Shown here piece by piece: positions 6,065-16,174 of a stretch of 64,000 nt of DNA. The notes under the pieces are model-generated. The model was given only the letters and a program-made list of their open reading frames with translations, was not told the origin of the DNA and did no database searches. Within the stretch, counting starts at the first letter, position 1. Each line of letters starts with the position of its first letter. The position numbers and the translations under genes are program-made. The stretch is from Flavobacteriaceae bacterium. GTDB taxonomy: Bacteria; Bacteroidota; Bacteroidia; Flavobacteriales; Flavobacteriaceae. Location of the stretch: assembly GCA_030726725.1 (NCBI GenBank), contig JANRDC010000018.1, positions 1 through 64,000 on the forward strand, in the 5' to 3' direction.

Positions 6065-6569
6065 AGGACAAGATGTTTTGTTGCGCGCACTAGAACCAGC
6101 TGACCTAGACTGGTTGTATCACATGGAGAATGATCCAGCACTTTGGTCGTGGTCAGATGTTGTTCAGCCTTATTCCGCTTACCAACTGTCAGAGTACATC
6201 CTTAAATCTCAGTCAGATTTGATACAAACCGGTCAATATCGTTGGGTCATCGCTGACCTTCAAAAAAATCCCATAGGTTTGTTGGATATCTACCACTATC
6301 ACCACAAACACTTGCGTGCCGCAGTCGGTATTGTGGTCTCGCCAGAGCAACGCAAAAAAGGGGTGGGCAGGCAAGCCTTATCACTTTTGTCGCTTTGGGC
6401 GAAAAATCAGTTGGGAATAAAGCAGCTGTATGCCGAAGTCCCTCATTTAAACCAAGCAAGTAGATCCTTGTTTTTATCTGGAGGTTATCGACAAGCTGCT
6501 GAAATTAAAGATTGGTATCGACACGGAGATCAAATACAACATCAAATCATCTATCAAAAATGGCTTTAA
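6057..6569 (+). CDS. GNAT-family N-acetyltransferase (RimJ/RimL/SpeG-like)
   Basis: A 170-residue GNAT enzyme that should transfer acetyl from acetyl-CoA to an amine. It carries the characteristic start of the family (VLLRALEPADLDWLYHMEND), the acetyl-CoA pyrophosphate-binding segment near EQRKKGVGRQAL (residues about 100-112) and the C-terminal NQASRSLFLSGGYRQ motif. The substrate cannot be told; polyamines or ribosomal N-termini are known in related enzymes. The ATG at 6057 lies inside the end of dapF; an ATG at 6036 is less likely. The 3' end overlaps mltG by 10 nt. Confidence 0.85.
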   Translation: MIKGQDVLLRALEPADLDWLYHMENDPALWSWSDVVQPYSAYQLSEYILKSQSDLIQTGQYRWVIADLQKNPIGLLDIYHYHHKHLRAAVGIVVSPEQRKKGVGRQALSLLSLWAKNQLGIKQLYAEVPHLNQASRSLFLSGGYRQAAEIKDWYRHGDQIQHQIIYQKWL

Positions 6570-7609
6570 CACAGAATAACCGCAAAGTTCTTTTTTGGGG
6601 CATAGTCAGCCTGGTCATTTTAGGGCTCCTCACTCGATTTGTGTACTTATTGGTTTGGTCACCGAACACCCAGTTTGAAGACCAACAGGTCATTTATATA
6701 CCTACCGGCGCTGATCAAGCTGTATTTATGGAAAGAGTGGCACCCTACCTAAAAAACCCGAGTTCATTTGAGCGTTTTGTCGGTTTGCGCGGTGGTTGGG
6801 AAGTCATTAAGCCAGGAAAGTTCACCTTGATTGAATCGATGAGTAACCTGGCTTTGTTGCGCAAATTTAGACAAGGATCAGAAACTGTTCGCGTGGTATT
6901 TAACAATCAAGATCGGCTTGAATTGCTGGCCGCACGTGTGGCCACGCAAATTGAGGCGGACAGTTTGTCGCTGATCAATGCCTGGACTGATCCACGGTTT
7001 TTGGCGGAAAAGCAATTGACTAAAGATCAGGTATTGGCTGTTTTCTTACCCAATTCCTATGAGTTTTTCTGGAATACAGATGCAGTCACTTTTAGGGATC
7101 GCATGTGGTCCTACTACGAAGCGTATTGGACAGATGAACGCAAGCAGTTGGCGCAACAACTCGGGCTTACGCCAATCGAAGTGGCTGCTCTGGCCGCTGT
7201 GGTGCATAAAGAAACAGTGAAGCCTGAGGAGCGTTCTAGGGTTGCAGGGGTATATATCAATAGATTAAATATCGGCATGAAACTACAGGCTGATCCTACC
7301 GTAATCTTTGCCATCAAACACCAGAGCAATGATTTTGATCAAGTGATTAAACGCGTATTTCACAAAGACTTGACGATTGATTCGCCATTCAATACTTATC
7401 GATATAAAGGAGTGCCTCCAGGACTTATAGCGATGCCTGATTTGTCTGCGATTGAAGCAGTATTACACCCAGAGCAACACAATTATTTGTTTTTTGTCGC
7501 TGATCCAAAAAAGCCAGGTTACCACCGTTTTTCTACCCATTACGGCCAACACATCAACCAAAGCAAAAGCTACACCCGTTGGGTTGATCGTCTAGGTATC
7601 CAGCGTTAA
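6560..7609 (+). CDS. mltG: Endolytic murein transglycosylase MltG
   Basis: Cleaves nascent glycan strands at the inner membrane and so limits peptidoglycan chain length. The 349 residues have a single N-terminal membrane helix (about 10-32) and a YceG-like domain. The catalytic glutamate is Glu218 in the VVHKETVKPEERSRVAGVYINRL region, followed by the substrate-groove motif LQADPTV. The ATG at 6560 overlaps the end of the acetyltransferase gene; translation probably couples. It precedes another exported peptidoglycan-type enzyme at 7712, but a promoter lies between them. Confidence 0.94.
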   Translation: MALTQNNRKVLFWGIVSLVILGLLTRFVYLLVWSPNTQFEDQQVIYIPTGADQAVFMERVAPYLKNPSSFERFVGLRGGWEVIKPGKFTLIESMSNLALLRKFRQGSETVRVVFNNQDRLELLAARVATQIEADSLSLINAWTDPRFLAEKQLTKDQVLAVFLPNSYEFFWNTDAVTFRDRMWSYYEAYWTDERKQLAQQLGLTPIEVAALAAVVHKETVKPEERSRVAGVYINRLNIGMKLQADPTVIFAIKHQSNDFDQVIKRVFHKDLTIDSPFNTYRYKGVPPGLIAMPDLSAIEAVLHPEQHNYLFFVADPKKPGYHRFSTHYGQHINQSKSYTRWVDRLGIQR

Positions 7610-7640
7610 AATTTGTTAATTTACTCATTTTCAGACAGTT

Positions 7641-7684
7641 GTTTGTTTTTGTAACAAACTATTTGACAAATAGTTGTATATTTG
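7641..7684 (+). promoter_or_regulatory. Promoter with overlapping palindromic operator candidate
   Basis: The -7 box TATATTTG (7677-7684) is directly preceded by a perfect 9-bp inverted repeat with a 1-nt centre (AACTATTTG at 7657-7665, CAAATAGTT at 7667-7675). A second inverted repeat, GTTTGTT (7641-7647) and AACAAAC (7653-7659), lies just upstream and overlaps it by 3 nt. Such symmetry between the -33 and -7 positions would suit a dimeric repressor. The regulator is unknown. Confidence 0.55.
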
Positions 7685-7711
7685 CAGCGTTTTGGCCTTA
7701 ATGCCTTACCG

Positions 7712-8359
7712 ATGCATACTGTAACTCGTTTTTTACTCATTGGGCTTTTTCTAGCGTTTAGCTTATGGGGATCATTGGCTCCATTTTGGAGATATGCTCT
7801 TCCAGATTCAGCCAAAGTCACTGAATTTCATGAAGAATTTGGTGCTCAAAATGAGGCAGTAAATTTTGAATTTCCTTTTTTGTCAAAAGATTACAACGGA
7901 TTTAAAGAGGCCTTGGCTTTTTTTGAGTCTCGAGGTATGTACCACAAGATCAACCCTTATGGATACATCGGCAAGTATCAGTTTGGCGCGCAAACTTTGT
8001 CTCTGATGGGTGTGGATCGCGTAGCGTGTTTTGTTCGAGATCCATCTTTGCAAGAAAAAGTATTCTATCACCACACAGCCCGCAATAAATGGATATTGCG
8101 CAAGGATATTCCCCGTTCGGCAGGACAAATGATCGACGGTCATGTGGTGGATGAATCGGGTATATTGGCCGCTGCTCATTTAGCCGGAGCAGGCAATGTG
8201 AAAAAATATCTCAGATCACAAGGTCAAGAGGAATTTAAGGATGCTAACGGCACCCAAATCAAAGATTACTTGGTCCGTTTTTCAGGGTATGACCTAGAAT
8301 TCGTCTCTAAAACGAAAAATCCTTCCTTTTTAGCTGCCCGGCGCTCACTAAAAAAATAG
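7712..8359 (+). CDS. Exported muramidase/transglycosylase-like protein
   Basis: A 215-residue protein with an N-terminal signal or anchor helix (about residues 5-24). Its core resembles the lysozyme-like fold seen in Bacteroidota proteins often labelled as LysM-type peptidoglycan-binding: FKEALAFFESRG, with candidate catalytic Glu72, followed by INPYGYIGKYQFG (80-92) and a helix with HLAGAGNVKKYL. No LysM domain is present. The role is inferred to be peptidoglycan cleavage in the periplasm. I choose the ATG at 7712 because the upstream TTG (7682) lies inside the -7 box. The last 53 nt overlap the convergent methylase gene. Confidence 0.65.
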   Translation: MHTVTRFLLIGLFLAFSLWGSLAPFWRYALPDSAKVTEFHEEFGAQNEAVNFEFPFLSKDYNGFKEALAFFESRGMYHKINPYGYIGKYQFGAQTLSLMGVDRVACFVRDPSLQEKVFYHHTARNKWILRKDIPRSAGQMIDGHVVDESGILAAAHLAGAGNVKKYLRSQGQEEFKDANGTQIKDYLVRFSGYDLEFVSKTKNPSFLAARRSLKK

Positions 8360-16125: not shown

Positions 16126-16143
16126 TTTGTAACAAAATGTTTG

Positions 16144-16174
16144 TTTTGTAAATTGAACTTCTGAATTATATTTG
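16144..16174 (+). promoter_or_regulatory. Promoter upstream of the DUF6913-dapA pair
   Basis: TTTTG (16144-16148), 18-nt spacer and -7 box TATATTTG (16167-16174), 16 nt before the ATG at 16191. A partly symmetric TTTGTAACAAA element lies just upstream at 16126-16136. Confidence 0.7.

Follow-up and report, generated by a model that had tools for sequence, protein, structure and literature searches.

Does the perfect palindrome that abuts the promoter of a muramidase-like gene in a Flavobacteriaceae genome mark the operator of a dedicated regulator, or can the promoter itself account for it? The question is raised by positions 7641-7684 of a 64,000-nt stretch of DNA (the window, by which we mean the whole stretch that was analysed), which take in two inverted repeats and a promoter box. 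A preliminary description had proposed an operator conferring specific control on an exported peptidoglycan enzyme. The features on which the argument draws are as follows.

6512..7609, plus strand: mltG (YceG family; Pfam PF02618, E 2.5e-64), the upstream neighbour, with conserved gene order
7610..7644, plus strand: conserved block from the mltG stop to the linker; three genomes agree in 29 of its 35 columns
7641..7659, no strand: second, overlapping inverted repeat GTTTGTT/AACAAAC, 7-bp arms and 5-nt centre, taking in the unconserved linker 7645-7656
7657..7675, no strand: perfect palindrome AACTATTTG-A-CAAATAGTT in the predicted promoter's spacer, at about -32 to -14 (left arm AACTATTTG 7657-7665, centre A 7666, right arm CAAATAGTT 7667-7675)
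7668..7674, plus strand: A/T-rich patch near -18, AAATAGT, within the right arm
7677..7684, plus strand: TATATTTG, the -7 element of a sigma-A promoter of the Bacteroidota type, fitting the TAHHTTTG of PMC6847099; start predicted near 7689
7712..8359, plus strand: gene whose 215-aa product has a hydrophobic stretch at its N-terminus and a domain of predicted lytic-transglycosylase-like fold

Layout of the palindrome and the predicted promoter

Direct reading of the sequence bears out the described layout. Positions 7657-7675 (AACTATTTGACAAATAGTT) form a perfect dyad (9 of 9 pairs) with 9-bp arms about one central base, the second repeat (GTTTGTT at 7641-7647, AACAAAC at 7653-7659) overlaps its left end, and a Bacteroidota-type TAnnTTTG promoter box (TATATTTG, 7677-7684) starts one base past it. 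The palindrome lies 47 bp beyond the mltG stop (7609), and 36 bp separate its end from the ATG (7712) of the muramidase-like gene.

In the sections of the Flavobacterium johnsoniae promoter study drawn on here (PMC6847099), the -7 element TAHHTTTG occupies -12 to -5, in many cases 4-5 nt ahead of the start, A/T-rich motifs are centred at -18 and -28, and the -33 element is weak and far less evident than the -7 element; excerpts of a study of F. psychrophilum sigma-A (PMC9723704) give the same -7 consensus. With T-12 set at 7677, the start is predicted near 7689, which places the dyad at about -32 to -14 and leaves a leader of about 23 nt. The arms of the dyad then fall on A/T patches, ACTATTT near -28 and AAATAGT near -18 (CTATTT at -30 to -25, AAATA at -21 to -17). 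When 98 promoter-like sites in intergenic DNA of this genome are taken together, the A/T fraction reaches its peak of 0.85-0.87 at -18/-17 and falls to 0.52-0.55 at -26 to -23. The -18 patch is clear in this genome, and the -28 patch is weakly visible because the A/T fraction at -31 to -27 (0.62-0.68 over the same sites) is no higher than in much of the upstream background.

A -33 element usually has its TTG ending 17-23 nt before the box. No TTG ends in that interval here, the TTGs ending 11 and 25 nt before the box. The site resembles the Bacteroidota sigma-ABfr promoter (-33/-7, TTTG/TANNTTTG) in its TATATTTG box, its A/T patches near -18 and -28 and its short leader, and differs from it in having no -33 TTTG at the usual distance and a perfect dyad for a spacer; we still class it as a sigma-ABfr promoter because the -33 element is far less evident in F. 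johnsoniae (PMC6847099, in the sections used). A sigma-70-type candidate elsewhere (7584-7612), one weak promoter-like match where shuffles give 0.9, was rejected.

How unusual such a dyad is depends on the background chosen. The 64-kb window holds a single perfect dyad whose arms reach 9 bp or more around a centre of 0-1 nt; simulating the window 20 times with a first-order Markov model gave 0.6 on average. A further 100 simulations at intergenic composition (G+C 0.387) gave 0.42 per 28.2 kb, or about 0.08 for the 5.3 kb of intergenic DNA in the window. Given these two means, the dyad is unremarkable across the window and mildly unusual, not extraordinary, for intergenic DNA. In 464 kb of the host genome there are 12 such dyads, six of them labelled intergenic: three GC-rich terminator-like hairpins, the A/T-rich TTGAATTTTTAAAAAATTCAA, the present site and GGATTTGATCGATCAAATCC, which when read lies in fact inside coding sequence. 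At the 98 promoter-like sites, pairs about -23 average 2.4 of 9, and the present site alone reaches 9.

Conservation and recurrence of the palindrome

Within the genus set, the protein is present in 11 of 12 genomes, the window's own counted; its closest orthologues, in genomes G002 and G007, share 78-79% protein identity and eight others 46-50%. The perfect dyad occurs at the window's locus alone among the 11 genus orthologues. Symmetric Watson-Crick pairs number 9/9 in the window, 7/9 in G002 and 3/9 in G007, and not one pair is altered on both sides among these three. A pairing tool that counts G-T as a pair scored 85.2% of cells as paired, with shuffles also at 85.2% and slid versions at 22-63%, as expected when one row defined the structure.

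It is the box side that is conserved. In the three close genomes, identical columns make up 29/35 of positions 7610-7644, 2/12 of the linker 7645-7656, 6/9 of the left arm, 7/10 of the centre and right arm, 10/10 of 7676-7685 and 21/26 of the leader, and TAGTTGTATATTTGC is identical in all three. At 46% protein identity, two loci (L012 and L013) retain AAATAGTTGTA[AT]ATTTGC / AAATAGTTGTAAATTTGC with an unrelated left half. G002 retains 17/19 dyad bases, including a perfect ACTATTT-GAT-AAATAGT, and agrees with the window at just 2/12 bases of the linker, the region's least conserved stretch and a part of the second repeat; the spacer is therefore constrained, not free to drift, and we take the constraint to reflect promoter function. 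The 35-nt block that follows the mltG stop (7610-7644) is more conserved than the palindrome arms, and it would be at least as good a regulatory candidate, if anything upstream regulates.

Farther out, a profile of the 11 proteins was searched against 100 Flavobacteriaceae genomes, one per genus and the window's genome among them, and matched the family in 86. Forty loci were analysed, comprising 29 family loci (leaving out L053, which is the window) and the 11 genus loci; two (L063 and L074) had no protein anchor motif and were not scored, leaving 38 anchored loci, the window included. All 38 carry some TAnnTTTG in the searched stretch, and 37 carry it at the leader position, where L055 has TATCTTTA. 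None of the other anchored loci has a dyad with 9-bp arms (centre 0-4 nt) within 45 nt before a TAnnTTTG box. The next largest dyads have 8-bp arms, one within mltG in L007 and one in the leader of L009, each preceding some other TAnnTTTG; G002 has 7-bp arms. As for gene order, mltG is upstream on the same strand in 39/39 orthologue loci tested. Conservation upstream of orthologues, which the preliminary description had made a test of its proposal, is partial in G002, with symmetry lost in G007 and no comparable dyad immediately ahead of the box in those more distant orthologues that were examined.

Nor does the palindrome recur: a genome search found no second copy of the 19-mer within 2 mismatches in the 1.73-Mb assembly. 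At 3 mismatches there is one extra site, against 3 forward matches for a reversed control pattern. The same pattern matches only the orthologous site in G002 (68% complete; 2 mismatches; control, 2 forward), and in G007 it finds one unrelated place (3 mismatches) and does not match the orthologous site. The 13-mer core TATTTGNCAAATA, at up to 1 mismatch, occurs in 15 places, compared with 8 for the control. By a simple ORF call, 10 of these lie inside ORFs, the only other exact core among them, and the five outside are the palindrome itself and L182, L185, L186 and L187; a small regulon of degenerate sites may exist.

Several other repeats were noted in the same genome. The motif TAGTTGTAnnTTTGC occurs 9 times at up to 1 mismatch, against 2 for its reversed control, and the second repeat (TTTGTAACAAAC) is not enriched at that threshold, with 4 hits on each strand where the reversed control has 8 forward and 18 reverse. 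A near-copy of the second repeat at 16126-16137 precedes another TAnnTTTG of the window (box at 16167). Elsewhere in the assembly an exact TAGTTGTAnnTTTGC is found just once, where a contig ends (G000 C17:77-91, L016); after TAGTTGTATTTTTGC there, what we take by eye to be the start of a cut-off tRNA-Glu seems to come next, and ARAGORN found no tRNA in L016. We give this apparent tRNA no weight here. Two intergenic hairpins on contig C4 of the same assembly (about 143902-143928 and 169984-170012) have a common core GGCGCCCAATGGGCGCC and perfect arms of 13 and 14 bp, and are probably terminators related to each other or members of a small family of repeats.

The downstream protein and its mRNA leader

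The 215-aa protein begins with a hydrophobic stretch (by eye) and has no Pfam match at E 1 and no NCBIfam match. Nine of the family's 11 members give a hit to PF06737 (Transglycosylase-like) with E of at most 1 (best 0.0016), the window's own not being among them. A first structure model, from 3 sequences, was poor (mean pLDDT 40.9) and was set aside; a model from 40 sequences (37 of them viral) reached block-mean pLDDT values of 86-95 over residues 61-190 and 76.6 overall. With this model Foldseek returned nothing at E 0.001 or better, its best matches being phage phiKZ gp144 and MltE (E 0.021). Run over the Foldseek candidates, VIA-align gave Z up to 10.9 (rmsd 3.1 over 122 residues, soluble lytic transglycosylase Cj0843), a value that helical models can reach without kinship. 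Its first 22 rows, at Z 9.2-10.9 over 119-132 residues and 13-17% identity, are lytic transglycosylases, lysozymes and phage core or lysin proteins. E72-S73 and GKYQFG are invariant in the 11 bacterial proteins, and E72 is also kept in the 40 mixed sequences. A profile of the family, run against the sequences of the PDB, produced only weak and implausible hits (best E 0.1), which were discarded.

Any likeness to lytic transglycosylases of the SLT/MltE/Cj0843 type and to phiKZ gp144 is one of predicted fold; in sequence the protein differs from lytic transglycosylases (13-17% identity), and small phage proteins are much closer (34-51%). The gene product is predicted to be anchored and to fold like a lytic transglycosylase, and it has relatives in phages. 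The earlier view of a muramidase-like exported enzyme accords with the hydrophobic N-terminus seen by eye and with the predicted fold (best Z 10.9): 'muramidase-like' appears a fair label, lytic transglycosylase a likelier one. On viral contigs 165 relatives were found and 80 kept (L083-L162), with 34-51% identity in the 37 aligned; the six that were read have an N-terminal hydrophobic stretch and the same domain as the window's protein, and in all three tested the best PHROG is 27932, baseplate hub/tail lysozyme.

In ten genera (L054-L062, L073), the mRNA leader contains a conserved hairpin between the TAnnTTTG box (TATCTTTA in L055) and the ATG. It takes the forms TTAAG...CTTAA, CTAAG...CTTAG and CTATG...CATAG; of 6 pairs, 2 are changed on both sides, and the subset of ten leaders yields a stem of weak energy (-0.9 kcal/mol). 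A model built from them and run over 100 genomes hits just these 10, a single time in each and adjoining the gene, and also scores L066 (31.5 bits) among the loci collected. RNAalifold, given 26 leaders aligned with MAFFT, proposed no pairing, and leader folding relative to shuffles was weak, with a mean z of -1.16 for 36 leaders and of -0.95 for the 25 that start with L054. By eye, stems of differing sequence seem to occupy the same place in the leaders of further genera, and RNAalifold gave them no support. The window's own box-to-ATG stretch is 27 nt long, with a GGC/GCC remnant. An Rfam search of 8 loci gave one sub-threshold L20-leader match, in L070 and away from the palindrome site, which was dismissed.

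Alternative explanations for the palindrome

We consider it probable that an ordinary Bacteroidota sigma-A promoter has the palindrome for its spacer and that the symmetry is coincidental. A sigma-A (sigma-ABfr) promoter would transcribe the lytic-transglycosylase-like gene: RNA polymerase would recognise TATATTTG at -12 to -5, assisted by the A/T-rich patches near -28 (ACTATTT) and -18 (AAATAGT), which lie about one helical turn apart and in this genome are reverse complements about a TTTGACAAA centre, by coincidence in this reading. The promoter would work with no DNA-binding protein of its own. In favour of this reading are the conserved box side, the box at the leader position in 37 of 38 loci, the lack of recurrence and of compensatory change, and the excess of TAGTTGTAnnTTTGC over its control. 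In this reading, two A/T-rich patches one turn apart would raise the odds of near-symmetry, and the perfect match itself would remain coincidence. Against it stand the expectation of about 0.08 such dyads for the window's intergenic DNA, the uniqueness of the site among 98, the 17/19 bases kept in G002, the weakness of the -28 patch and the want of a -33 TTG.

Some of the same observations favour a repressor special to the lineage, whose dimer would sit on the dyad (-32 to -14) and block RNA polymerase, the site having been lost in G007, so that the cell-wall enzyme would be made only in some condition. The perfect dyad overlaps the promoter, chance would put only about 0.08 of its kind in the intergenic part of the window, and its near-perfect state in G002 (17/19 bases) is one point in favour; the core TATTTGNCAAATA does exceed its control (15 places vs 8), and 4 of its 14 other places lie outside called ORFs, but 10 of the 15 are in ORFs, including the only other exact core. 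Single-site operators exist, and the want of another 19-bp site within 2 mismatches weakens the claim. The orthologous site of G007 goes unmatched (the 3-mismatch place found there is unrelated), symmetry there falls to 3/9 with no compensatory changes, and no dedicated regulator is seen beside the site, where the neighbours are a GNAT protein, mltG and an RsmI-like methyltransferase, with dnaA two genes on (by eye). Taken whole, this explanation strikes us as unlikely. The proposed operator fails both tests that the preliminary description set for it, genome recurrence and orthologue conservation, save for the partial retention in G002; with no match to the two LexA palindromes of PMC8565304 and no comparable dyad close before the box in the more distant orthologues examined, specific control is not borne out.

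A variant, in which the dyad would be the single operator of a lineage-only repressor for a core lytic transglycosylase that distant relatives would control by an mRNA-leader hairpin (the stem of the ten genera, which covaries), control having moved from RNA to DNA, appears very unlikely. Still less probable is a role at the RNA level, with the inverted repeat serving mltG as terminator or hairpin. Its place 47 bp past the mltG stop (7609) would allow a 9-bp stem in read-through RNA, yet the stem is A/T-rich with a 1-nt centre and no T-run, no terminator-like site was found in 7500-7800, the repeat is not retained in the orthologues examined, and, lying upstream of the predicted start, it would be absent from the downstream gene's own mRNA. 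We give least credence of all to an SOS (LexA-like) box. Bacteroidota SOS regulators do bind palindromes in promoter regions, with lineage-specific divergence, in the portion of PMC8565304 consulted, but the dyad here (CTAT-N7-ATAG) departs in half-site and spacing from the CTAA-N5-TTAG and GGA-N5-TCC reported there, is present in a single copy, and precedes a gene outside the DNA-repair set that those regulators are described as controlling (PMC8565304, same portion).

Should the operator reading nonetheless be true, it would offer a way into how Flavobacteriaceae control a core lytic enzyme of the cell wall. Under the favoured promoter-spacer reading, a striking palindrome can arise from ordinary promoter architecture, with A/T patches one turn apart and no regulator. 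Since near-symmetry can come from such patches, palindrome calls in A/T-rich Bacteroidota promoters need an orthologue test.
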